Shown: one piece after another, positions 3,414-64,000 of the stretch
Position numbering within the stretch: the first letter of the stretch is position 1
How the letters are laid out: every line of letters starts with the position of its first letter
Origin: a virus
Virus record (IMG/VR): IMGVR_UViG_3300017991_000083
Span: 27,367-91,366 of that record
Reading direction: 5' to 3' (one strand)
Length of the DNA stretch: 64,000 nucleotides
Notes under the pieces: generated by a model
What the model saw: only the letters and a program-made list of their open reading frames with translations
The model's database searches: none
What the model was told of the DNA's origin: nothing
Made by a program: the position numbers and the translations under genes

Positions 3414-4025
3414 CTAGGAGAAACTCTCTGGTCGGAACGGGACCCTGGCCGGATCGAGACAGGCTGCCCACATGTGACGCTTCTTCTTCGTCGTCGTCGT
3501 GAGCTTCGCCCGGTGCTCGTAACGCTCCTTCGCGCACTGATACCAGGGCCGTTCAGCGTCGTGCAGCAGCAGGATCCCGTTCGGCTTGAGGAGAGTCCGG
3601 GACCTGATAACGCATCGCCGACGGAAGCGGCCGTCGACAATGACGATGTCGAACTTCTGACGCTTGATCGCACTCTCCGGGACGTCCTTGAGCTCCTCGG
3701 GATCTCCGTCTAGCCAGGGGAGCGCGATGTAGGTGTTCCCGTTCGTGTTCAGGGGCATGAAGTGGACGGTGACGGCCCCTTTCGGTATCTTCTCTTCCTT
3801 GACGCTGACCGCCACCTTGCCGCGGACGCGCTTGTTCCAGCTCTGGTGATGTTCGATGGACCGCCAGCGGAACCGGACCCCGAGCTTGTGCAGGAGCTCG
3901 GCGCACATGAGCGTACTGCCGCCGGAGCCCCACTCGAGGATCTCGAGCGGCTGGCCGGTCTCGGCGTAGGCCCGCATCACTTCCCGGAGAATCTCTATGT
4001 CGTCGGGGTCCATCCAGGGCTTCAT
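3414..4025 (-). CDS. Class I SAM-dependent methyltransferase-like protein, 203 aa
   Basis: Near residue 25 the motif LEILEWGSGGST matches the glycine-rich SAM-binding loop, and FDIVIVDGRFRR matches the acidic strand 4 region. LLKPNGILLLHDAE matches the later strand that ends these Rossmann folds (FkbM/TylF-like group). Such enzymes usually methylate sugars or small molecules. ATG 4025 overlaps the endolysin stop (ATGA). A second protein of this general type lies at 37082-37744, so the phage carries two. The substrate is unknown; a glycan made by the sugar-transferase block is a guess. Confidence 0.75.
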   Translation of the reverse strand: MKPWMDPDDIEILREVMRAYAETGQPLEILEWGSGGSTLMCAELLHKLGVRFRWRSIEHHQSWNKRVRGKVAVSVKEEKIPKGAVTVHFMPLNTNGNTYIALPWLDGDPEELKDVPESAIKRQKFDIVIVDGRFRRRCVIRSRTLLKPNGILLLHDAERPWYQCAKERYEHRAKLTTTTKKKRHMWAACLDPARVPFRPESFS

Positions 4026-26403: not shown

Positions 26404-28715
26404 TAGAGCTCCCTGACGTCTGCAACCCCGTAGTACATGTGCGTTATCATCCGAGGCGGCAGATCCCCACGGAACGGTTCCGCAGTCCCGCCGCCGGTTG
26501 TGGGCTGAGTCTCTTCGCCAGGCTGCCAGTTGGAGTAGCGGTCCTCAACATTCCGCTCGATGCCGCGGCCGGCATAGTAGCCGAGCTTAGCCCGGATCTT
26601 CGAGGTCGGCTGCACGTAGCCGAAGTGGTAGACCAGTTTGTCTGCCACTACCGCCTCTTTGTAGCCCGTCTCTGAGCGGACCGGGCGGCCCTCGCTGTCG
26701 ACGAACGTATTGAACGACTTCTCGTGATGGAAGCCCTGACTCCAGCGCCACATTCTCGGGATCTTCGACTCCCACTGAGGGCAGCCGACAGCGACCGTTG
26801 TGAAGTTCGTCCAGAAGTGATGGAAGCCCACGCGGACGATTGCCAGCTCACGGTCGTCTACGAACATCTTCATGAGGCGAGCGACGTCTTTCGGCTCCCA
26901 TATCTCGTCGCTATCGACCTTCATGTAGATGTCGCCCGTCACACGCTTGGCGATCGCGTTCTGCATCTCAACCTTGTCCTTCCACCGATGATCCTTGGGC
27001 GGGGGGACGAGAGTGATCTTCTCATCCGGGTCGGGATAGGCCGCGATCTTCTGGAGTGTCGCATCGGTGCTGGAGCCGCGCTCGTCGGCGTGTTGCCACA
27101 TCCCTTCGACTGCCCCCTCGACGATGATGATCTCGTGGGCGAGATCGTAGATGCCGTCGAGCGCCTCCGTGATGTAGGAGTCGCCGTTGAAGACTATCAT
27201 GCCGACGGAGAGCTTCGGGCCGTAGCCCCCTACCCGGAAGATGTCGAGGGACTTCTTGGTGCTCGCCTCGATGGTACACCAGTCCAGAATCCGGTCCCGG
27301 CCTCGGGCCACAGTCGCTGAGACTTCGGCGCGGTTTTCTGGCTCGAGCACCCAGGACACCTTTTCCGCGAAGTCGCCAGGGTCGCCCAGGCGTGCGTAGA
27401 AGACGCCGTCCCCGTAGGAACCACGGAGCACCGGGAGATCGTAAGCGACAACGGGCGTGTTCATGTAGAGCGCCTCTTCGGGGGGCATTCCGAACCCCTC
27501 GAACATGCTCGGGAACAGCAGTACGTCGGCTTTCTTGATGGCCTCGAACTTGGAGCGGTCGTCGACAATGCCCTGAACGTCGACGTAGAGATGGTTCTCA
27601 GCCCACTCGGGCCTCTTGGCGTCGAGCCTCTTCTGCTCGTTCGGGCCGACCTTACCCATCACCGTCACATGTGCCGAGCACTGCAGGGTCTCCGCAAGCG
27701 CATCGAACACCGCGATCGGGTTCTTGAAGTCGACCATCCTGGCACAGAACACGAGCTCGGCCCCGTACTCGGGCTCCTGCTCCCGCTCACGCGCCTCCGC
27801 CCTCGAGAGCTCGTCGTCTATCTCGTCCACATCATCGAAGATGGGATCGGCGATGCCCGCCAGAGTGGCGTCGGCCACAAGCTGGTTGATCGGCGGCTCG
27901 AGCACGAACCAGGGACCCTCGAAATCCGGAAGCCACTGTTGGGCCCATCTCGAGCTTACCGCGGACGGACTCACGATCCCGTCGCAGGTGAGCAGGCACT
28001 TCTTGTAGTTCGCCCAGTACTCCTCTGTCGCATCTCTGCCAGACGGATAGGTCATCCCCTTGAAGTTCGGGCTCTCGAAGAGGATCAGGTAACAGGGAAT
28101 GCCGAAACGCTCGGCGTAGGACTTGGCGAACTGGCCTCCGATGTTCGGCACACCAATGACGAAGTCGAACTCGTTCTCGGAGATGTCCATCCCCCATCGG
28201 GTGTCGACGATGCGCTCGAACCGCTCGAGGTTGTAGCCAAGGAAGTCCTTCTCGAACGGCGCCGGCGTGTTCGTGATGACCTTGACGTCCATGACCTGGG
28301 ACAGGATGACGCCAAGCAGATACATTGAGTAGCGTCCGCCCGTGTAGTGCGGCATCTGCTCCATGAAGATAGCGCAGCTCCGCGGGGCCTTGCTCGGGCC
28401 GTAGGTCAGATACTGGCGTTCTGATGGGAGAGGGATGAAGAGCGGGCTGGTCGCAAGCGCGACGAGCTGCCCGAGCTTGTGCGAGTCAGCGTTCTCGATG
28501 AACTTCTTGGGGATGGTTAGCTGATAGGCAGTAGGCAGTTCTTCAATGGAGATGTCCGGCACATCCTCATCGGCAGCGATGACGGGGCCGGACTCTACTG
28601 GCGTAGGGGCGGTTTCGCCCACAAAGGCCTTGCGACTCTCCAGCGGTGCGCCCCCGCCTTCGACGAAGTTCTTTGTGGGCTCGTCCCGCTCGAGGGACCG
28701 TTTCGTATCTCCCAT
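26403..28715 (-). CDS. Bifunctional glycosyltransferase (GT4 plus GT2), 770 aa
   Basis: Residues about 1-100 are a linker-like, Pro/Glu-rich N-terminus. About 100-490 is a GT4 domain with ELVFCARMVDFKNP and the Glu-x7-Glu motif in SMFEGFGMPPEEAL. From about 505 a GT2-like domain follows (VGMIVFNGDSYITEALDG; IIIVEG), with the DxD-type MKVDSDEIWEP and QGFHHEKSFNTF near the end. The fusion could make two linkages on one acceptor. It opens the sugar-transferase block, and its stop is shared with the next start. Confidence 0.88.
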   Translation of the reverse strand: MGDTKRSLERDEPTKNFVEGGGAPLESRKAFVGETAPTPVESGPVIAADEDVPDISIEELPTAYQLTIPKKFIENADSHKLGQLVALATSPLFIPLPSERQYLTYGPSKAPRSCAIFMEQMPHYTGGRYSMYLLGVILSQVMDVKVITNTPAPFEKDFLGYNLERFERIVDTRWGMDISENEFDFVIGVPNIGGQFAKSYAERFGIPCYLILFESPNFKGMTYPSGRDATEEYWANYKKCLLTCDGIVSPSAVSSRWAQQWLPDFEGPWFVLEPPINQLVADATLAGIADPIFDDVDEIDDELSRAEAREREQEPEYGAELVFCARMVDFKNPIAVFDALAETLQCSAHVTVMGKVGPNEQKRLDAKRPEWAENHLYVDVQGIVDDRSKFEAIKKADVLLFPSMFEGFGMPPEEALYMNTPVVAYDLPVLRGSYGDGVFYARLGDPGDFAEKVSWVLEPENRAEVSATVARGRDRILDWCTIEASTKKSLDIFRVGGYGPKLSVGMIVFNGDSYITEALDGIYDLAHEIIIVEGAVEGMWQHADERGSSTDATLQKIAAYPDPDEKITLVPPPKDHRWKDKVEMQNAIAKRVTGDIYMKVDSDEIWEPKDVARLMKMFVDDRELAIVRVGFHHFWTNFTTVAVGCPQWESKIPRMWRWSQGFHHEKSFNTFVDSEGRPVRSETGYKEAVVADKLVYHFGYVQPTSKIRAKLGYYAGRGIERNVEDRYSNWQPGEETQPTTGGGTAEPFRGDLPPRMITHMYYGVADVREL

Positions 28716-55079: not shown

Positions 55080-55591
55080 CTAACCGTCGACGGGGCGCCC
55101 GGTTGCGGCGCTCGAGGGCGCCGGCGCCGTCGGCCGGCCCTGGCCCTGGCCCGGGGCCCTGGGGCAATCCCCAGGGGGCCGCGGGTCGGCCTAACTTGCG
55201 ACCGGGCCGGCGTTTGGGCCGGGTCCAGGGGGCCCAGGTTTACAGAATAGCTATTATGCGACGCTGGCCGGCCTAACTGACGGCGGGGCAATCACTTAGC
55301 GCCTGACGTCAGGGCGCCCGGGGGGCCGGGCCGGGGCCAGGGCCGGGGCGATCCGGGGGGCCGGCCCCAGGGGAGACGGGCGACGGCCGGGCCCCGAATC
55401 CGGCCCCGGCGCCGGCCCTGGCCCTGGACCCGACCGGCGACACGGGGGCGTCAGGGGGTCCCCGGGTGCGCCCGGGGTCCAGGGGGGGCGCTCGAGGGGC
55501 GCCGGGGGTGCGGGTGCGGGGGTCCAGGGGGCGGGCCTGGGGGTCGGTTGCCGGCCTGGGGGGGGCGGCCAGGGTCGGGGGCGTTCGTCGA

Positions 55592-55683
55592 TCCTGGGGC
55601 GATCCTGGGGCCCTGGCGGGCGCCCTGGTCGGGGGTCCGGCCCTGGCCCTGGGGCGGGCGCTCGAGCTCTCCGGGCGCCGGCC
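55592..55683 (+). repeat. 92-bp exact direct repeat, copy 1
   Basis: Identical to 56113-56204, 521 bp away. It begins TCCTGGGGCGATCCTGGGG and ends CTCGAGCTCTCCGGGCGCC. Both copies follow a GGGGGCGTTCGT module. Confidence 0.85.
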
Positions 55684-56112
55684 CTGGCCCTGGCGCTCGA
55701 GCTCTCCGGGCGGGGTCCAGGGGGCGGGGGGGGCGCTCGAGCTCTCCCCCTGGGGCGTCGGGTGCGGGGGAGCTCTCGAGGGGGCGGGCCAGGGCGGGGG
55801 TGCTCAGGGTCGGGGGCGGGGGCGTTCGTGTCTCCTGGGGGGCGTACGGGGGCCGGTTTGGGTGCGGTCGGGGCGTTTGGGCGTTTTCGGGGGCCTTTTG
55901 GGGTCGCCGGCGGGCGTCAGGGGTCGGGCGGTCGGCGCTCCTGGGGGCGCTCTCGAGCTCTCCGGGCGCCGGCCTGGGGCCTGGGGGGGCGATCCTGGGG
56001 GCGTCAGGGGGCGGGGGCGCTCTCCGGGTGCGGCGTCAGGGCGTCAGGGTCGCCCCTGGGCGGGCCCTGGGGCCTGGGGCGGCCAGGGGTGCGGCCTGGG
56101 GGCGTTCGTGTC

Positions 56113-56204
56113 TCCTGGGGCGATCCTGGGGCCCTGGCGGGCGCCCTGGTCGGGGGTCCGGCCCTGGCCCTGGGGCGGGCGCTCGAGCTCTCCGGGCGCC
56201 GGCC
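56113..56204 (+). repeat. 92-bp exact direct repeat, copy 2
   Basis: Identical to 55592-55683. The flanks diverge beyond the GGGGGCGTTCGT module, so the unit was copied as a block. Confidence 0.85.
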
Positions 56205-56951
56205 TGGGGGCGCTCTCGAGGGTCGGCGGGGGAGCTCTCCGGGCGGGGGTCCAGGGGGGGCGCTCGAGCTCTCCCCGGGGGGCGCTCTCGAGGGGGCGCC
56301 CTTGCGCCCTGGGTGCAGGGGGCGCCCTGGGGGCCGCGGGCGTTTTCGGCGGTTTCGGGGGATCCCCGGCGCCGTTTTCGGCGGTTTCGGCGTTTGGGCG
56401 GTTTCGTTTGGGCGGGGCGTTTTCGGGGGGGCCTATTCGATCGCGGCCGGGGGCCGCGGGCGCCCTCGAGGGGGGGGCGCCGGCGCCGGCCGGGGCCGGT
56501 GTCGGCGGGTCGGGTCCGGGGGCCCTCGAGGGCCGGCCCTGGGGCGCTCTCGAGCTCTCCGGCCGCGGCCAGGTCGGGGCGCTCTCGAGGGGGCGGCCCT
56601 GGGGCGATCCTGGGGCCGTCAGGGCGCCCCGGCGGCCTGGGGCGGCCAGGGGTCCGGCCTGGGGGCGTTCGTCGATCCTGGGGCGATCCTGGGCCCCTGG
56701 GGGGCGCTCCTGGGGGCGCTCTCGAGCTCTCCCCAGGGGCGCTCTCGAGGGGGCGGCCTTGCGGCATATCCGCGGCGATCCTGGGCGATATGCGGCGCCG
56801 GTACGGGGAGCGCCCCCCGCGGCCCTGGGACCTGGGCGCGGGGGGCGGGTGCGGTGTTGCGGGGATCGGGGCGGGCGGGCGGGGGCGCCCTGGGCGCCGG
56901 CGGGGTCCTCACGCCGGCGGGCGCCCCCTGGGGGCGGTCCCGGCGGGCGTG

Positions 56952-57815
56952 CTACGGTCCCGCAATCGTCGCCAGGCCGGCGGCGCTCTCGAGCGCTCCG
57001 GCCACGGGGCCCAAAGCCACGGCGGCGGCGGCCAGTACGGCGGCGGCCAGGGCGGCCCCTGCTATGACGGCCAGGCGGACGGCGCCCAGGTCGGGCGGCG
57101 GGCCGGCCGGCCCGCGGGGGGCCGGCGCGGGGTCCGATCCGCGCCAGGTTGCAGGCGCGGGCCCCAGGGCGCCGGCCGCGATCGCGTCACGGGCGGCGGT
57201 TGCGAGTGTTCCGGCGCCGGCCAGGCCGGCCCGGATAACGCCGACCAGGGCCAGGGCCAGGGCCCCGGCCAGGGCCAGGGCCCCGGCCAGGGCCAGGGCG
57301 CCGGCCTGGTCGGCTGTCTCTGTTAGCTTGTCGCCGGCGGCCTCGAGGCGGGCGCGGCGGCCGCGGGCGACCGTCAGGCGCCAAACGGGCGGCCAGGGGC
57401 GCGGGCCCCCGACGTCGCCCCCGGCGACCTGGCGCCAGGCCCAGGCGACGGCCTGGGCGCCCTGGCGGGCGTGGTAGGCCGTCGACCTGACGGCCCCCCA
57501 GGCCCTCGAGCGCTCGAGCGCCCAGGGGCCCAGGGGCCGGGTTGCGATCGCCCAGGCGATCGGGGCCAGGTCGGCCAGGTGGCGGGCCCGGCGGCGGGTC
57601 CAGGTGCGGCCGGCGCGGCCGGCGCGGGCGATCCTGGCGCCCAGGGTGCGGGCGGCCGCGGCCTGGGCGGCGTCATAGTCGGCCAGGGCGTCGGCCAGGG
57701 CGGCGGCGGCGTCATCGGCGCCAAACGGGGCGTGTGATCCCCGGGCGGCAACCTCGGCGGCCTCGAGTACGGCGGCCAGGGCGCGGCGGGTGCGGGTGCG
57801 GGCGGTCTCTTTCAC
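56952..57815 (-). CDS. Ala-rich protein, 287 aa
   Basis: GTG 57815 sits behind the repeated AAGGGGGAGACA leader. Alanine makes up roughly a third of the chain, with Arg and Asp; long helices are expected (LAAVLEAAEVAARGSHA; DDAAAALADALADYDAAQAA). Two hydrophobic segments may be membrane helices: GALALAGALALAGALALALV (near 180) and LAVIAGAALAAAVLAAAAVA (near 255). It is the last of five such genes, and its GC content is the highest. Function unknown. Confidence 0.72.
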   Translation of the reverse strand: MKETARTRTRRALAAVLEAAEVAARGSHAPFGADDAAAALADALADYDAAQAAAARTLGARIARAGRAGRTWTRRRARHLADLAPIAWAIATRPLGPWALERSRAWGAVRSTAYHARQGAQAVAWAWRQVAGGDVGGPRPWPPVWRLTVARGRRARLEAAGDKLTETADQAGALALAGALALAGALALALVGVIRAGLAGAGTLATAARDAIAAGALGPAPATWRGSDPAPAPRGPAGPPPDLGAVRLAVIAGAALAAAVLAAAAVALGPVAGALESAAGLATIAGP

Positions 57816-57867
57816 TGTCTCCCCCTTGCGGGGGGGCCGGCCAGGAGCCGGCCCCGGTTGCGGTTGA
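57816..57867 (-). promoter_or_regulatory. Repeated leader 1: hairpin plus Shine-Dalgarno hairpin
   Basis: Minus strand from the previous stop: TCAACCGCAACC, then hairpin GGGGCCGGC-N5-GCCGGCCCC, then CCCCC-GCAA-GGGGG, then AGACA and GTG. The GGGGG of the second hairpin is the ribosome site, closed by a GNRA-type GCAA loop. Nearly identical to leaders 2 and 3. Confidence 0.75.
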
Positions 57868-58680
57868 CTAGCTGTTGGCGCTCTCGGCGAAACGGGCCGC
57901 GACGGTCACGGGCTCCCCCTCGAGGCGGGCGACCAGGGGCGCCAGGCGCTCGAGCACGGCCACCAGGGCGGCGCGGGCCCTGACCTCGAGCTCGGCGCGG
58001 GCCTGGTCGGCCTCGGGGCCCTCGGCGTGGATCACGTCCAGGGCGCCGGCGTCGGTCGGGCCCTCGGGGTCGAAACGGCGCCCAAACTCGGCGCCGGCCT
58101 TGTCGACGTCGCCGGCGGTATCAATGGCGGCCTGGTATAGCACGGCCTCGACGGCGCGGGCGCCGGCCTGGGCCTGGCCGACCCGGCCGCGGTTGACGTC
58201 GGCCAGGTGCGCCAGGCGCTCGGCGTCGGTGTCATCCCGGGCCAGGTCTCCGGCCTCGAGGGCGGCGCCGGCCAGGACGTCGACGGCCCAGGCCTGGCCC
58301 AGGGCCCGGCCCAGGGCGTCGGCCAGGGCCTCGAGGCCCCGGGCGGCGGCGTCGATCTTCGCCCAGGCCAGGCCGGCGGCGTACGTCGCCCCGGCGGCGC
58401 CGGCCAGGGCCTGGCGGCGGTACGATCGGCCCGCGGCGATCACGGCCGCGGCGGTGTCCTCACGGCGGGCGCCGGCGGTCCGGGCCGCGGCCTCGAGCTC
58501 GAGGGCGGCGGCCTCGGCGTCGGCGTCGCCGGCCAGGCGGTCGGCCTCGAGGCGGGCCAGGTCGGCCGCGGTGCGGGCGGCCTCGGCGACGTTGCGGGCG
58601 GCGCGGTTGCAGGTCGCCAGGTCGCGGGCGTCGGCCGGGGCGACCAGGGCGGGCGGGGCGGTTTCGGTTGCGTTTCTCAC
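57868..58680 (-). CDS. Ala-rich helical protein, 270 aa
   Basis: GTG 58680 behind leader 2. Nearly all helix, Ala/Asp/Arg/Glu (VAEAARTAADLARLEADRLA; AEAAALELEAAARTAGARRE; LARDDTDAERLAHLADVNRG). No Cys or His cluster that would suggest a metal site, no membrane segment. It may form a long coiled coil or a polymer. Not recognised. Confidence 0.72.
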   Translation of the reverse strand: MRNATETAPPALVAPADARDLATCNRAARNVAEAARTAADLARLEADRLAGDADAEAAALELEAAARTAGARREDTAAAVIAAGRSYRRQALAGAAGATYAAGLAWAKIDAAARGLEALADALGRALGQAWAVDVLAGAALEAGDLARDDTDAERLAHLADVNRGRVGQAQAGARAVEAVLYQAAIDTAGDVDKAGAEFGRRFDPEGPTDAGALDVIHAEGPEADQARAELEVRARAALVAVLERLAPLVARLEGEPVTVAARFAESANS

Positions 58681-58734
58681 TGTCTCCCCCTTGCGGGGGG
58701 CCGGCGCCCAGGGCGCCGGCCCGGTTGCGGTTGT
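58681..58734 (-). promoter_or_regulatory. Repeated leader 2: hairpin plus Shine-Dalgarno hairpin
   Basis: Same order as leader 1, but the first stem is GGGCCGGCGCC-N3-GGCGCCGGCCC. Both sides changed together compared with leaders 1 and 3, which is covariation and supports a real RNA stem. The CCCCC-GCAA-GGGGG hairpin is unchanged. Confidence 0.75.
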
Positions 58735-59481
58735 CTACAGGTTGCCGGCCGGCGTGTCGCCGGCCAGGGTGTCGGCCAGGGCCTGGGCGCAGCCGGCGAG
58801 CTCGGCGGCGGCGGCGTTGTCCAGGCGGCGGGCGATCGCGTCGGCGTCGCCGGCGGCCCCCCTGGCGTCGGCCAGGGTGCGACGGGCGGCCCGCATATCG
58901 CGGGCGGCCTTGTCGGCGGCCTCGGCGGCCTTGCGGGCCCGGCGGGTCGCCAGGTCCAGGGCGCCGGCGGCCCTCGACGCCCGGCGGGCGGCCTTGCGGG
59001 CCAGGCGGTCGGCGGTCCGGCGCTCCCGGGCCAGGCGGGCGCGGTCGGCGACGTACTCCGGCCGCGGATCACAGCCGGCCGCGGTCCGCTGATCCTCGAG
59101 GGCCTGGGCGCTCTCGAGGCGGGCGACGGCCTGGGCGGCGGCCGTCAGGGCGGCGCCGGCCTGGGCCTCGGCCTCGGCCTCGACCTGGCGGGCCTCATCT
59201 CTCAGGCGCTCGACCAGGGCCGCGGCGCCGGCCAGGACCTCGGGCGCCGGGTTGCGGTAGGCCTCGAGGCGGACCGTTGCCAGGTGCCAGGAATGGCCCC
59301 CGCTGTGCATGTGCGGCGCCAGGCGGACCCGGGCGCGGTCGGTTTCCTCGTCGGCGTAGGCCTGGACCTCGACGCGACCCGACCAGCCGGCGGCGTGCGT
59401 GCGTACCCCCGACCCGGCCGACCCTAGACGGGTGGCGGCGGTCCGGCCCTGGCCCTCTGTCATCCCCTGGAAGCGTGCCAT
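58735..59481 (-). CDS. Ala-rich protein with conserved phage N-domain, 248 aa
   Basis: The first 80 residues differ from the rest: MARFQGMTEGQGRTAATRLG, SGVRTHAAGWSGRVEVQAYA, GGHSWHLATV. This recalls a small phage protein group (family name not known to me). The remaining 165 residues are Ala/Arg/Asp-rich helices (EAEAEAQAGAALTAAAQAVA; KAAEAADKAARDMRAARRTL). ATG 59481 overlaps the previous stop (TAATG). Confidence 0.75.
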   Translation of the reverse strand: MARFQGMTEGQGRTAATRLGSAGSGVRTHAAGWSGRVEVQAYADEETDRARVRLAPHMHSGGHSWHLATVRLEAYRNPAPEVLAGAAALVERLRDEARQVEAEAEAQAGAALTAAAQAVARLESAQALEDQRTAAGCDPRPEYVADRARLARERRTADRLARKAARRASRAAGALDLATRRARKAAEAADKAARDMRAARRTLADARGAAGDADAIARRLDNAAAAELAGCAQALADTLAGDTPAGNL

Positions 59482-59813
59482 TAGTGGCCCCCTCTCTGGC
59501 CGGCGACGTCGCCGGCGGTTGTGGTGTCGGTTGCGATCACGGCGGCCGCGAATCCGGCCGCGGTCAGGCGCCGGGCGCCGACCCTGGCGGCGTCGGCGTC
59601 GGCGTCGGCCTGGTCGGCCAGGCGGGCGGCCCGGCGGAATGCGGCCGCGGCCCGGCGGGCCTGGCGCTCGGCGGCCTGGTCGCCCGGCCGGCGGGCGGCC
59701 GCGGCGTCGGCCGCGGCGGCCAGGCGGGCGGCCCTTGCGACCTGGCGGGCGGCCCGGTCGGCGGCGGCCTCGAGCTCGGCGGCGGCGTCTCTGATTGCGT
59801 CGGCGGTTGTCAT
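59481..59813 (-). CDS. Ala-rich helical protein, 110 aa
   Basis: ATG 59813 behind leader 3. Pure Ala/Arg/Asp helix (AAAELEAAADRAARQVARAA; QAAERQARRAAAAFRRAARL) with a short beta end (AAGFAAAVIATDTTTAGDVA). Related in style to the other cassette proteins. Function unknown. Confidence 0.7.
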   Translation of the reverse strand: MTTADAIRDAAAELEAAADRAARQVARAARLAAAADAAAARRPGDQAAERQARRAAAAFRRAARLADQADADADAARVGARRLTAAGFAAAVIATDTTTAGDVAGQRGGH

Positions 59814-59864
59814 TGTCTCCCCCTTGCGGGGGGCCGGCCAGGGGCCGGCCCCGGTTGCGGTTGA
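59814..59864 (-). promoter_or_regulatory. Repeated leader 3: hairpin plus Shine-Dalgarno hairpin
   Basis: Nearly identical to leader 1: GGGGCCGGC-N5-GCCGGCCCC then CCCCC-GCAA-GGGGG and AGACA-ATG. Position directly after a stop codon. Confidence 0.75.
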
Positions 59865-60224
59865 CTAGCTGTCGGCGGATGCGTCGCCGACGGTCCCGGC
59901 CAGGTGCTCGGCCTCGAGCTCGGCGTCGGCCTGGGCGTCGGCGATCCGGGCCAGGGCCTGGCCGGCGCGGAGAGTGTGCAGGCGCTCATCTCCGGCGGCC
60001 CTGATCCGGCCGGCGATCGCGGCGACGGTCTCGGCGATCCGGTCGGCGTCGCCGGCCTGGATCGCGTCGGCGACGGTGTGCAGGTCATCCGGGCGGACGG
60101 CGACGCCCCCGGCGGGCGCGGCCTTGCGGGCGGCGGCCAGGTCGGCCAGGTCGGCGGCGGTCTCACTGGCGGCGGCGGCCTGATCGGCGGCGGCGGCCTT
60201 GCGGTCGGCGGTGCTCTTGCTCAC
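59865..60224 (-). CDS. Ala-rich helical protein, 119 aa
   Basis: GTG 60224 behind AAGGGGGAGACA. Sequence is Ala/Asp-rich helix (ADQAAAASETAADLADLAAA; ADRIAETVAAIAGRIRAAGD). An alternative ATG at 60326 lies exactly where the transcript from the 60333-60362 promoter should begin, which would give a leaderless 153-residue form. First gene of the cassette group. Function unknown. Confidence 0.7.
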   Translation of the reverse strand: MSKSTADRKAAAADQAAAASETAADLADLAAARKAAPAGGVAVRPDDLHTVADAIQAGDADRIAETVAAIAGRIRAAGDERLHTLRAGQALARIADAQADAELEAEHLAGTVGDASADS

Positions 60225-60332
60225 TGTCTCCCCCTTGCGGGTGCTCCCCTCGGCGGCCCCGGCCGGATTGCCGGCGGCGGTCTCGGGGGGCGGTTTGTGT
60301 CCTGCTGTTGGGCGGTTTGTCGTCATGGGGGC

Positions 60333-60362
60333 ATGGTAGCACGCCGGCGCCCAGGCCGTCAA
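60333..60362 (-). promoter_or_regulatory. Early promoter (minus) for the Ala-rich gene group
   Basis: TTGACG (60362-60357), 18 bp, TACCAT (60338-60333) with the extended TGC just upstream. Same design as the dnaN promoter and the two plus-strand promoters. The predicted start at 60326 coincides with an ATG. Confidence 0.75.
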
Positions 60363-60661
60363 GGATTATTTTCTCCCCCGTGTCGATTGTCGGCCGGCCC
60401 CCCTCGAGGCCGGGCCGGCGCCCCCTCGGGGGGCGGCGTATTCCGGCGGATTGCGGGCGCACGTTGCAAGCGGCGTGCCAAACGGTCGGCGACGCCCAGG
60501 GGCCGGGCCTCGAGGGCGGGCCCAGGGGGCGCTGGCGGGGGAGCTCGGCGCCGGCCTCGAGGGCGCCCCCTGGGGGCCGCGGGCGGCCTGGGGCGGCCCG
60601 GTGTCCAGGCCGGGGGCGTTCGTCGATCCTGGGGCGATCCCGGGGCCCTGGGCGACGCCCT
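60363..60661. repeat. Non-coding G-rich spacer with GGGGGCGTTCGT module
   Basis: No gene. The module at 60612 continues into CGATCCTGGGGCGATCC, so this is a fifth copy of the family found at 55.6-56.7 kb. CCTCGAGGGCG and GCGCCGGCC phrases recur. Confidence 0.6.
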
Positions 60662-60806
60662 GGCGCCGGCCCTGGCCCTGGCGGGGGAGCTCGAGCGCCG
60701 GCCGGCCCTGGCCCTGGCGGGGGAGCTCGAGCGCCGGCCGGCCCTGGCCCTGGCGGGGGAGCTCGAGCGCCGGCCGGCCCTGGCCCTGGCGGGGGAGCTC
60801 GGCGCC
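60662..60806 (+). repeat. 36-bp tandem repeat, four units
   Basis: GAGCTC landmarks at 60687, 60723, 60759 and 60795 give an exact 36-bp period. Each unit is GGCCCTGGCCCTGGCGGGGG then AGCTCGAGCGCCGGCC. No spacers between units, so this is not a CRISPR array. Confidence 0.85.
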
Positions 60807-60835
60807 GGCCTCGAGGGCGCCGGGGCGGTTCGGCC

Positions 60836-60865
60836 TTGACTCGAGGCCGGCCGGCGTGCTACAAT
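60836..60865 (+). promoter_or_regulatory. Plus-strand promoter A
   Basis: TTGACT (60836-60841), 18 bp, TACAAT (60860-60865) preceded by TGC (extended -10). Very close to consensus. It points away from the coding strand into a region with no gene but with the 26-bp repeats and a terminator. It defines a plus-strand transcript starting near 60872. Confidence 0.82.
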
Positions 60866-61002
60866 CGCGGTTCGGGTCGCCCCTGGGCGGCCCTGACGCC
60901 GGCCCCCGCGGCCCCCGACCTGGGCGGCCCCCGGCCGGCCCCCTCGAGGCGCCCCCGGCGCCCCCCCGGCCCCCTGGCCCCCCGGCCATATCACGCCCCC
61001 TA
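60866..61002 (+). ncRNA. C-rich leader of the predicted plus-strand RNA
   Basis: 137 bases between promoter A and the repeats with no start codon and ribosome site pair. The strand is C-rich, the complement of the G-rich repeats elsewhere. Treated as the 5' part of the non-coding RNA. Confidence 0.5.
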
Positions 61003-61199
61003 GCTTGCGAGCGATATGCCGACCCCTAGCTTGCGAGCGATATGCCGACCCCTAGCTTGCGAGCGATATGCCGACCCCTAGCTTGCGAGCGATCCCGACC
61101 CCCTTAGCTTGCGAGCGATCTCGAGACCGCGACCTTGCGAGCGATCTCGAGACCGCGACCTTGCGAGCGATCTCGAGACCGCGACCTTGCGAGCGATCC
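61003..61199 (+). repeat. 26-bp phased repeat array, eight copies
   Basis: CTTGCGAGCGAT begins at 61004, 61030, 61056, 61082, 61108, 61134, 61160 and 61186, always 26 bp apart. The bases between copies change (ATGCCGACCC, CCCGACC, CTCGAGACCGCGAC) while the spacing does not. Each core contains GCTTGCGAGC or a close form, a short dyad able to make a UGCG-loop hairpin in RNA. In one frame repeated TAG codons block translation, so it is not protein. Confidence 0.88.
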
Positions 61200-61260
61200 C
61201 GACCAGGCCCCAAACGGTCGGCGCCCCGGCCTCGACAAGGGGAGAGACCAGGGCGCCCGG

Positions 61261-61297
61261 GCCCCCGTTTGTGCGGGGGCGTTTTCGTTGTGTTTTC
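61261..61297 (+). terminator. Intrinsic terminator of the plus-strand RNA
   Basis: GCCCCCG-TTTGTG-CGGGGGC followed by GTTTTCGTTGTGTTTTC. The 7-bp GC stem with a U-rich tail on the plus strand is a standard rho-independent terminator. It lies at the end of the minus-strand gene 61297, whose stop is in the tail, so the two opposite transcripts meet here. Confidence 0.85.
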
Positions 61298-62097
61298 TAG
61301 GTCGCCGGGGGCGCCTCAAGGGCCCCGGCGACCCGGGCCGCGGCCTTGAGCTCGGCGTCGCGGGCGGCCTCGGCGTCGTCATAGTCGACAATCCGAACCT
61401 GGACCCCCGGCGTCGCGTCGCCGACGTGGGCGACGCCCCCCAGGACCTCGACGGTCACAAACGGGGCGCCGTCGATCTCCAGGCCGGCCAGGGCGATCTC
61501 GAGCTCTCCGGCGACGTACTCCGCGGCCTGGCGCCTCGGCTCGATCTCCGGGAACTCGCCCCCCTCAACGTCGGCGGCGGCCGCGGCCAGGAGCTCGACC
61601 TCGGCTCTCAGGGCCCGGATTGCGAAACGGGCCCGGTCGGCCAGGGCCTCGGCGCCGGCGCGGGCGACCTCGAGGGCCTGGGCGTACTCCTCGACCTCGC
61701 GGGCGTGTCGGTACTCCGTCATAACTTCCTGATCCTCGGCCTCGAGCGAATAGTACGCCCTCAGGTCGGCGGCCCAGGTGTCCAGGACCTCGGCGTCGCC
61801 CCGGCCCCCGTGTACCTGGGCGCCCGGCGACACGTACTCAGCCAGGGCGTCGATCACGTACTGCACGCCGTCAGGCGTCAGGGAAGCGCCCAGGTACTCC
61901 CCACATTCTGCACAGTGCAGGGGCGAATCCGTTTCGCCCCCGCCGTCAGGATACGGGCCGGCCGGCCAGGTGTCGGTGTCGGCGTCATCACGCGACGGGC
62001 GCCGGGCCGGGGCCCTGCCGGCGGCCTCGAGCTCGGCCTGGATCGCGGCGGCGCAAGTTTCACAGTAGATGTCGGCCTGGTAGATGTAGACGTCCAT
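61297..62097 (-). CDS. Zinc-ribbon-like phage protein, 266 aa
   Basis: ATG 62097 has AGGGGGGC. The N-terminal half holds CETC in YQADIYCETCAAAIQAELEA and CAEC in DSPLHCAECGEYLGASLTPD, two CxxC knuckles for one zinc. A helical Ala-rich half follows (EYAQALEVARAGAEALADRA), then a strand end (VTVEVLGGVAHVGDATPGVQ). Similar proteins with the same CETC/CAEC core are common in phages, function unknown. It is the gene after dnaN. Confidence 0.75.
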   Translation of the reverse strand: MDVYIYQADIYCETCAAAIQAELEAAGRAPARRPSRDDADTDTWPAGPYPDGGGETDSPLHCAECGEYLGASLTPDGVQYVIDALAEYVSPGAQVHGGRGDAEVLDTWAADLRAYYSLEAEDQEVMTEYRHAREVEEYAQALEVARAGAEALADRARFAIRALRAEVELLAAAAADVEGGEFPEIEPRRQAAEYVAGELEIALAGLEIDGAPFVTVEVLGGVAHVGDATPGVQVRIVDYDDAEAARDAELKAAARVAGALEAPPAT

Positions 62098-62138
62098 GTT
62101 GCCCCCCTTGTCGGTTGCGGCCCCCTCGAGGGCCAGGC

Positions 62139-62166
62139 GGCCCCCGGGCGACGGCGCCCGGGGGCC
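62139..62166. other. 12-bp stem-loop after dnaN
   Basis: GGCCCCCGGGCG-ACGG-CGCCCGGGGGCC, a perfect stem between the dnaN stop (62178) and the next start. It has no T-tract on the minus strand, so a processing or stability role is more likely than termination. Confidence 0.5.
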
Positions 62167-62177
62167 TGATCGGCGTG

Positions 62178-63386
62178 CTACTTCTCGAGTCTCAGGGGCA
62201 TCAGGATCGACCTGACGCCCTGGGCGCCCTGGTCGCCGGCGGCCTCGATCACGGCCGCGGCGACGGGCTTGGTCCATCCGACCCTGATCCGCTCCCCCTC
62301 GGGGAGATGCACCAGGGCGGCGGCCAGGTAGTCGCCATTGTATCCGGCGGTGAACTCGGCGGGCCCGCCGTCGACGTCGATGTACTCCCAGGCCTCGCCG
62401 ACGTCGGGCGTCGACACGGCGACCTTGCAGCGCCCCTTGCGGACCTCGAGACGAACCTGGTTCGTCAGGGTGTCGGCCAGGGGGGCGACGCGATCCAGGG
62501 CGCCGGCCAGGGCGGCCCGGTCGAACGTCGCCCAGGTCGCCGGCGTCGGGATCACTTGACGGTAGTTTGGGAATGGCCCCTCGAGCGCCCGGGCGACGAT
62601 AGTGACCAGGCCGATCTTGAACCCGACCCGGCCGGCCCCGTCGGCCTCGACGTATCCGAACCTGACAGGCGCCGGGGGCAGTTTCGCCTTGCGGGCGGCC
62701 TTCAGGTCGGCCGCGGCCTCGGCGGCGGCCAGGGCCAGGGCCTTTGGCGGCACTATGACGGCCTTGTCGGCCAGGCCGTTGGTGCGGGCGGGGAGCTCGG
62801 CGGAGACCAGGCGGTGGCCGTCGGTCGCCGTCGCCAGGACCTGGCCGTCGCCGACCTCGACAAACACACCGTTTAGACTCGGGCGCGTTTCGTCGGTCGA
62901 CGTGCAGAACCTGACGCGATTGTCCAGGGCGACCAGGGCCTCGGCGTCGATCTCGAGGCCCGGCGCCGGCGCCGGCCGGATCGACGGGAACTCGGGCGCC
63001 GGGAATCCCAGGACCTTGACGGTTGTCGGGCCCAGGGTGAGCTCGGCGCTCTCCGGGTCGCCGGGCTCGGTCTCCCCCTCGGCGGGCGCCGGGGTCTCGG
63101 CGTATATGGTCACGGCCTCGATCCCCTTTGCGCCCTTCAGGACCTTCAGGAGACGGTCGACGCCCAGGACCACGGCCCCGGCCTCGAGCTCGGCGCCGGC
63201 CTCGGCGGCGATCCGCCGGGTCACGGTCACGTCTAGGTCGGTCGCCGTCGCCAGGAGCTCTCCGGCCTCGACGTCGACGGTCATGTACGCCCCCGACAGT
63301 ACGGGGAGCGTCGCCTTGTTCGATGCTACTTTCTTCAGGCCCCTCAGGGCGCTCTCCAGGTCGGCACGTGCTACGGTTGCCCTCAT
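62178..63386 (-). CDS. dnaN: DNA polymerase III beta subunit (sliding clamp)
   Basis: 402 aa in the clamp layout: MRATVARADLESALRGLKKV at the start, PVLSGAYMTVDVEAGELLAT, LLKVLKGAKGIEAVTIY, then PEFPSIRPAP, TRPSLNGVFVEVGDGQVLAT, ATDGHRLVSAELPAR, and a C-terminal NGDYLAAALVHLPEGERIRV. The last residues (RSILMPLRLEK) resemble the clamp MPMRL end that binds clamp-binding peptides. It tethers a DNA polymerase to DNA. ATG 63386 with AGGGGGC is the start; an upstream in-frame extension is poor. Confidence 0.92.
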   Translation of the reverse strand: MRATVARADLESALRGLKKVASNKATLPVLSGAYMTVDVEAGELLATATDLDVTVTRRIAAEAGAELEAGAVVLGVDRLLKVLKGAKGIEAVTIYAETPAPAEGETEPGDPESAELTLGPTTVKVLGFPAPEFPSIRPAPAPGLEIDAEALVALDNRVRFCTSTDETRPSLNGVFVEVGDGQVLATATDGHRLVSAELPARTNGLADKAVIVPPKALALAAAEAAADLKAARKAKLPPAPVRFGYVEADGAGRVGFKIGLVTIVARALEGPFPNYRQVIPTPATWATFDRAALAGALDRVAPLADTLTNQVRLEVRKGRCKVAVSTPDVGEAWEYIDVDGGPAEFTAGYNGDYLAAALVHLPEGERIRVGWTKPVAAAVIEAAGDQGAQGVRSILMPLRLEK

Positions 63387-63460
63387 ATCTTGCCCCCTTG
63401 TCTCGGCGGCCTCGGCGGCCGCGGCCCTTGTCTGATGTCGGCCGGATTGCCGACGTTTAG

Positions 63461-63490
63461 AGTCTAGCATACATGCCCCCATGCTGTCAA
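63461..63490 (-). promoter_or_regulatory. dnaN promoter
   Basis: TTGACA (63490-63485), 18 bp, TAGACT (63466-63461) with a TGC extension. It lies about 70 bp upstream of the dnaN start and is divergent from plus promoter B, with 14 bp between the two -35 boxes. Confidence 0.82.
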
Positions 63491-63504
63491 GCGCCTTTTT
63501 GTGC

Positions 63505-63534
63505 TTGCGTCAGGGTCGGCCGGCGTGCTAGACT
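63505..63534 (+). promoter_or_regulatory. Plus-strand promoter B
   Basis: TTGCGT (63505-63510), 18 bp, TAGACT (63529-63534) with TGC extension. It reads into the 49-bp and 24-bp repeat arrays and has no gene downstream on this strand. Confidence 0.72.
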
Positions 63535-63589
63535 CGAGGCCTCGAGCGATCCCCAGGGCCCGGCCCTGGGGAGCTCGACGTCGGCCCCG

Positions 63590-63715
63590 GCCGGCGCCCA
63601 GGGGGAGCTCGAGGGCCCCGACCTGGCGCCGGCCTCGAGGGGGCGCCCAGGGGGAGCTCGAGGGCCCCGACCTGGCGCCGGCCTCGAGGGGGCGCCCAGG
63701 GGGAGCTCGAGGGCC
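63590..63715 (+). repeat. 49-bp tandem repeat
   Basis: GAGCTC landmarks at 63605, 63654 and 63703 give a 49-bp period. The unit runs GGCGCCCAGGGGGAGCTCGA then GGGCCCCGACCTGGCGCC and GGCCTCGAGG. Two full units and parts of a third. Confidence 0.8.
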
Positions 63716-63743
63716 CGGGACCGGCGGCGATATGTCGCCCCCT

Positions 63744-63830
63744 AGCTTGCGAGCGATCCCGACCTCGAGCTTGCGAGCGATCCCGACCTCGAGCTTGCGA
63801 GCGATCCCGACCTCGAGCTTGCGAGCGATC
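63744..63830 (+). repeat. 24-bp phased repeat array, four copies
   Basis: CTTGCGAGCGAT begins at 63746, 63770, 63794 and 63818, 24 bp apart, separated by CCCGACCTCGAG. Same core as the 61.0 kb array, with different spacing. Confidence 0.88.
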
Positions 63831-63841
63831 CCGACCAACAC

Positions 63842-63875
63842 AAGGGGCCCCAGGTCTATAGACCTGGGGCCCCTT
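63842..63875. terminator. Perfect 34-bp palindrome
   Basis: AAGGGGCCCCAGGTCTA is followed by its exact complement. Hairpin formation would give a 15-bp stem with a TATA loop. It could stop the plus-strand RNA from promoter B or be bound by a dimer. Two more core repeats follow at 63878 and 63904. Confidence 0.6.
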
Positions 63876-63919
63876 AGCTTGCGAGCGATATGTCGCCCCC
63901 TAGCTTGCGAGCGATCCCG
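63876..63919 (+). repeat. Two further CTTGCGAGCGAT copies after the palindrome
   Basis: Core copies at 63878 and 63904, 26 bp apart as in the first array. They end two bases before the stop of the right-hand gene fragment. Confidence 0.8.
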
Positions 63920-64000
63920 TCAACCGGCGGCGGCGGCCGACGTGGGCTCTCGGTAGCCCAGGGGGACCCGGTTGCGAATCTGCCCCTTCAGTCGGTCGGC
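63920..64000 (-). CDS. C-terminal end of a gene entering from the right
   Basis: 26 codons and a TGA are open from the window edge: ADRLKGQIRNRVPLGYREP then TSAAAAG. The text is plausible coding and the stop sits just before the repeats. Nothing more can be said. Confidence 0.5.
   Translation of the reverse strand, partial: ADRLKGQIRNRVPLGYREPTSAAAAG

Follow-up and report, generated by a model that had tools for sequence, protein, structure and literature searches.

The window analyzed here is a stretch of 64,000 nucleotides, which corresponds to positions 27367–91366 of a virus record of 91,366 bp. The end of the record is an exact 123-bp copy of its start, and thus the record is probably a complete circular assembly. 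A chimeric contig was also considered; this exact terminal overlap closes the record on itself and speaks against a chimera at the right end. The phage is tailed, unclassified and GC-rich, and it carries a terminase, head genes, SbcC/D-like nucleases, a DNA polymerase, a primase, a DnaB-like helicase and a sliding clamp. Its closest terminases among named phages, mostly from Streptomyces and Gordonia phages, are only about 27% identical, and a terminase 53% identical has been found on one 8-kb contig. The GC content of the window is about 62% up to 54 kb and 76–81% over 56–62 kb, the jump from about 62 to 80% being abrupt at about 55.0 kb. The region of 55.3–56.95 kb has a weak three-base periodicity, is packed with CTCGAG/GAGCTC repeats and looks non-coding. 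Palindromes in 55100–64000 are 1.46-fold (6-bp) and 1.84-fold (8-bp) as frequent as expected from base composition, the corresponding ratios in the left part being 0.93 and 0.92, with no excess; the 6-bp excess disappears under a Markov model.

The GC-rich part harbors a leftward, non-structural operon, the genes of which lie on the minus strand in the order D, C, C′, B, A. Genes D (60224–59865, 119 aa), C (59813–59481, 110 aa), B (58680–57868, 270 aa) and A (57815–56952, 287 aa, with hydrophobic stretches toward the C-terminus) encode Ala-rich proteins without a family match, and gene C′ (59481–58735, 248 aa) encodes a protein whose N-terminus matches phrog_5927, a family of unknown function. 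All of these reading frames have a strong three-base periodicity. The start of C′ overlaps the stop of C (TAATG), and no leader of the kind described below is found at this junction. A probable sigma70-type promoter of the operon lies at 60362–60333 on the minus strand (TTGACG-18-TACCAT, with TG ahead of the −10 element). A promoter scan of 9.2 kb gave four promoter-like sites against 0.1 expected, none of them inside the leaders.

Other elements are found nearby. On the plus strand, 60836–61280 has a promoter-like sequence (TTGACT-18-TACAAT) followed by eight tandem repeats of 26 nt, with a unit around CTTGCGAGCGAT, and by a hairpin resembling a terminator at 61261–61280; it may give a noncoding transcript of about 0.4 kb. 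The record contains the CTTGCGAGCGAT repeat 18 times, in a single orientation throughout, including the copies at 61004–61197 and 63746–63915 of the window and at record positions 1–38 and 3505–3542; these may be iterons or a binding array. A strong promoter-like sequence (TTGACA-18-TAGACT) is present at 63490–63461 on the minus strand, upstream of the sliding-clamp gene.

A leader repeated ahead of four gene starts

Starts 57815, 58680 and 59813, all on the minus strand, are preceded by spacers of 54–57 nt that begin at the stop codon of the upstream gene, as the original prediction stated, and are copies of one element from TAG to start. Leader A (57870–57816) consists of the TAG stop of gene B, a 12-nt linker (57867–57856), a 9-bp inverted repeat (57855–57833) and a hairpin, CCCCC-GCAA-GGGGG (57834–57821), which is referred to as the SD hairpin because its 3′ arm contains the Shine-Dalgarno (SD) sequence AAGGGGGAG (57827–57819). 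Leader B (58737–58681) likewise begins with the TAG stop of gene C′, followed by the linker (58734–58723), an 11-bp inverted repeat (58722–58698), the SD hairpin (58699–58686) and the SD (58692–58684). In leader C (59867–59814), the TAG stop of gene D is followed by the linker (59864–59853), a 10-bp inverted repeat (59852–59830), the SD hairpin (59832–59819) and the SD (59825–59817). The predicted order of a large hairpin followed by a GNRA-capped hairpin with the SD in its 3′ arm is therefore seen in all three. What they have in common can be written as UAG-N-CAACCGCAACC, a perfect inverted repeat and CCCCC-GCAA-GGGGG-AGACA-RTG. The 12-nt linker reads NCAACCGCAACC, and the inverted repeat is followed by CCCGCAAGGGGGAGACA and then the start codon. 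The shortened form predicted for a fourth gene has also been found: leader D (60242–60225, minus strand) keeps only CCCGCAAGGGGGAGACA, with ACCCGCAAGGGGGAGACA immediately ahead of GTG at 60224 and an SD hairpin of just 3 bp. Mean column identity among leaders A–C is 92%, the last 17–20 nt being present a fourth time in D, and the similarity stops near the stop and start codons. BLASTP detects no similarity among the five operon proteins, which speaks against gene duplication as the origin of the leader repeats.

Within the record, the leader is confined to this operon. Across all 91,366 bp, CCGCAAGGGGGAGA is found four times, each time on the minus strand and ahead of one of starts 57815, 58680, 59813 and 60224, and CCGCAAGGGGGAGACARTG is present at the four starts, its core occurring nowhere else in the record. 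At up to three mismatches, the window contains six 16-mer matches against 1.73 expected. There is no enrichment of the general pattern CCCCCGNRAGGGGGAG ahead of starts (13 of 122, versus 18 for the antisense control), and therefore it is not a widespread device. No Rfam model matches the window at its gathering score. Searches for relatives covered the leader, dnaN, A and C′, while B, C and D were compared with family libraries only. In the collections searched, which may omit records very near this phage, no viral contig contains the exact motifs of the leader, and the 16-nt core has six matches in viral contigs, none within a similar leader. A single match in a Paenibacillus MAG precedes an ATG, and the two-hairpin leader is absent there. 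No confirmed relatives of dnaN, C′ and A were found in viral contigs, nor any relatives of C′ and A in phages.

Pairing in the leaders and access to the ribosome site

Within 56951–60400 (3.45 kb, 80% GC), three perfect stems of at least 9 bp are observed against 0.9 expected, three also being the maximum among 60 shuffles. All three sit in the leader spacers, which make up about 5% of this region; however, they count as one event because the spacers are copies of one another. Each of leaders A–C folds better than its own shuffles (z about −2.6), and the upstream fold of leader D is unrelated to those of A–C and not significant (z −0.66). The stem formed by the inverted repeat (hairpin 1) is very stable, at −22 to −26 kcal/mol. 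It shares a C-run with stem 2, that of the SD hairpin, and this run of seven, six and six C's in A, B and C, respectively, is too short for both, so that the two stems compete and are never both at full length. In the minimum free energy structures, stem 2 is full in A and B and stem 1 is full in C. After stem 1 comes a C-run and no T-run, and thus hairpin 1 is not an intrinsic terminator; a terminator search gave no match in the leaders.

It had also been claimed that the first stem differs between leaders in a covarying manner, and this was not confirmed. The stems of A and C are identical except for one apex position, which is U-G in A and C-G in C, and the stem of B has a longer apex (GCCCTGGGC in place of CCCTG) and one basal pair fewer. 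The differences are thus an apex base and paired indels, with no two-sided (compensated) substitution among the three copies. This comparison was read by eye with structure-aware gap placement, and in the MAFFT alignment itself part of B is displaced by one position. Retention of pairing through paired indels is weak evidence.

How deeply is the ribosome site buried? Pairing of the G-run of the SD amounts to 94–100% in A and B, 57–97% in C and 58–97% in D. Opening the SD costs 8.8, 8.1 and 6.2 kcal/mol in A, B and C, respectively, and these native values are equalled or exceeded by 34, 39 and 65% of the controls in which the upstream DNA was shuffled. For leader D the cost is 5.0 kcal/mol with 60 nt of upstream sequence and 8.4 kcal/mol with 120 nt, and 46 and 27% of shuffles, respectively, are as high. 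When native coding DNA is used as the upstream control, the leader's cost is reached by 4–6% of constructs for A, 9–17% for B, 18–36% for C and 4–48% for D. Among 47 other phage genes, the starts of which were chosen automatically, the median cost is 5.4 kcal/mol, several genes being at 7–11 kcal/mol. A value of 20.8 kcal/mol for the terminase SD was set aside as a probable artefact because the C-run responsible lies in an apparent promoter and hence outside the RNA. SDs of the GGGGG type also precede starts 3337, 19356, 39953, 43658 and 63386, AAGGGGG-like SDs being ordinary in this phage. Sequestration of the SD beyond base composition is therefore predicted to be mild at most, as the opening cost matches that of shuffles and lies in the range of other genes, and the same type of SD is used elsewhere. 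Nevertheless, the high cost of A relative to native coding DNA leaves room for real sequestration. The earlier claim that the leader hides the ribosome site is thus right in that the SD is paired within the GNRA-capped hairpin, on its 3′ side, and goes too far in that the burial is no stronger than composition predicts. SD burial at 80% GC should be controlled for composition before it is read as regulation.

Explanations for the repeat

The best explanation, which may well be right and could equally prove wrong, is that the leader is a duplicated intergenic gene-start module through which successive cistrons receive the same kind of strong ribosome site, each with a local hairpin in front of it. 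Hairpin 1 would fold on its own in the mRNA and separate the start region from the GC-rich upstream cistron. The duplex of the SD with the anti-SD is worth −10.3 kcal/mol against an opening cost of 5–9 kcal/mol, and the AAGGGGGAG SD could compete with the short GCAA-capped hairpin, giving every cistron a similar initiation site with no need for a trans factor. Pairing of the SD would then mostly be a by-product of a G5 SD within 80%-GC sequence, and the module may have spread through duplication or recombination at gene boundaries. The four copies all stand directly before starts, on one strand and in one operon with a single promoter ahead, hairpin 1 is perfect in three of three copies and the layout is that of published start-associated repeats. 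Against this, three recent copies might stay alike without function, and the opening cost is no lower than in a shuffled context, which gives no support to an insulating role.

The former of these objections is the starting point of another explanation, in which the spacers were neutrally duplicated along with gene insertion at boundaries and only the SD has a function. The high identity of the copies, the dissimilarity of the flanking genes and the abundance of other direct repeats in the region would all fit. We regard it as improbable, as the copies are retained from stop to start and hairpin 1 is perfect although the apices differ. The same perfect inverted repeats, located at the same place as in ESAS and with half-sites GGGCCGGC/GCCGGCCC retained in three of three copies, could instead be read in DNA as, for example, an operator, as proposed for the ESAS repeats of Cluster K. 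This is quite unlikely: the leaders lack a promoter-like site, and the distance between half-sites grows from 5 to 9 bp in B, as is more in keeping with a hairpin than with a dimer site of fixed spacing, an argument that is not decisive since ESAS spacers vary too. It is highly improbable that hairpin 1 serves in mRNA processing or stability, parting cistrons by protecting the 3′ end of the upstream one or by forming an RNase site; its great stability, its position 12 nt past each stop and the lack of a T-run would suit such a role, but the C/C′ junction, where the genes overlap, has no such hairpin.

The original prediction went further and had translation controlled by a factor that opens the ribosome site or by coupling with the upstream gene. 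Such control is not supported, as the opening cost is ordinary relative to shuffles and compensatory substitutions are lacking; a regulatory factor may exist but is likewise unsupported. Direct translational coupling would be awkward in this geometry because in leaders A–C the 12-nt linker and hairpin 1 part the terminating ribosome from the SD hairpin. A translational control device, in which the GCAA hairpin keeps the SD closed until a phage or host factor or exchange of the C-run with hairpin 1 opens it, would account for the nearly complete pairing of the SD G's in A and B (94–100%), for a common C-run that puts two stems in competition and for a leader A costlier to open than 94–96% of the constructs that have native coding DNA as their upstream sequence. 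We consider it unlikely, given an opening cost that is ordinary both against shuffles (27–66% as high) and against other genes, the absence of compensated substitutions and of Rfam matches in the window, and a leader D that retains the sequence yet has only 3 bp. Its most elaborate form, an RNA switch in which hairpin 1 and the SD hairpin swap the C-run, letting a single phage factor set the translation of several unrelated early genes via a portable leader, is very unlikely. As a perfect hairpin and a strong SD are present without an intervening promoter, an RNA-level hypothesis can easily be tested with reporters.

Comparison with known start-associated elements

Hairpins that sequester the SD, with demonstrated regulation, are found at starts of the RNA phage MS2. 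The present leaders resemble them in that the SD or start lies inside a local hairpin of a polycistronic message, but differ in that SD pairing is not beyond composition.

Start-associated sequences (SAS) of 13 bp have been described at non-structural genes in large gaps of Cluster K mycobacteriophages, about half of them having a 17-bp inverted repeat upstream (PMC3203893), and the extended element (ESAS) of Adephagia contains putative promoters (PMC11373665). In Microbacterium phages, SAS and ESAS occur in Cluster EF, the ESAS being weakly conserved around GTAGAG, and Cluster EG has 18-bp inverted repeats upstream of starts (PMC7302621). Our comparison with Cluster K used parts of the TM4, Adephagia and Pixie genomes. 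The likeness is one of layout: a short, near-identical ribosome-site repeat stands at several genes, here at four starts, in a subset of the non-structural genes and with intergenic gaps of more than 50 bp, as in Cluster K (PMC3203893; PMC11373665), and an inverted repeat lies directly upstream in three of four leaders, as against about half of the Cluster K sites. Clusters EF and EG likewise share the placement, in the gaps between genes and ahead of starts, of a conserved ribosome-site motif or an inverted repeat. The sequences are different, as the leaders have 5–6 mismatches of 13 to the Cluster K motif GGGATAGGAGCCC and, at best, 5–6 mismatches to GGGAAAGGACCCC of Cluster EF. In addition, there are 4 copies here versus 11–19 in Cluster K, the SD forms part of a hairpin, on its 3′ side, the inverted repeat has no mismatch and, unlike in the ESAS of Adephagia, no promoter-like site is found within the leaders. 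The idea that the SAS itself is a mini-hairpin with GGG..CCC ends was rejected: pairing is possible at 35 of 44 Cluster K sites, yet most variants break it. One Cluster K site in Pixie (L146 position 2520) reads CGGATAGGAGCCG, with both ends altered and pairing retained.

The closest known kind is thus that of the start-associated sequences and upstream inverted repeats of Clusters K and EF, alike in layout and unlike in sequence. By analogy, the leader may work like this kind of element, of which it is no member by sequence. Several actinobacteriophage clusters are already known to carry start-associated repeats, with no established role, and here such an arrangement is found in an unrelated, unclassified phage.
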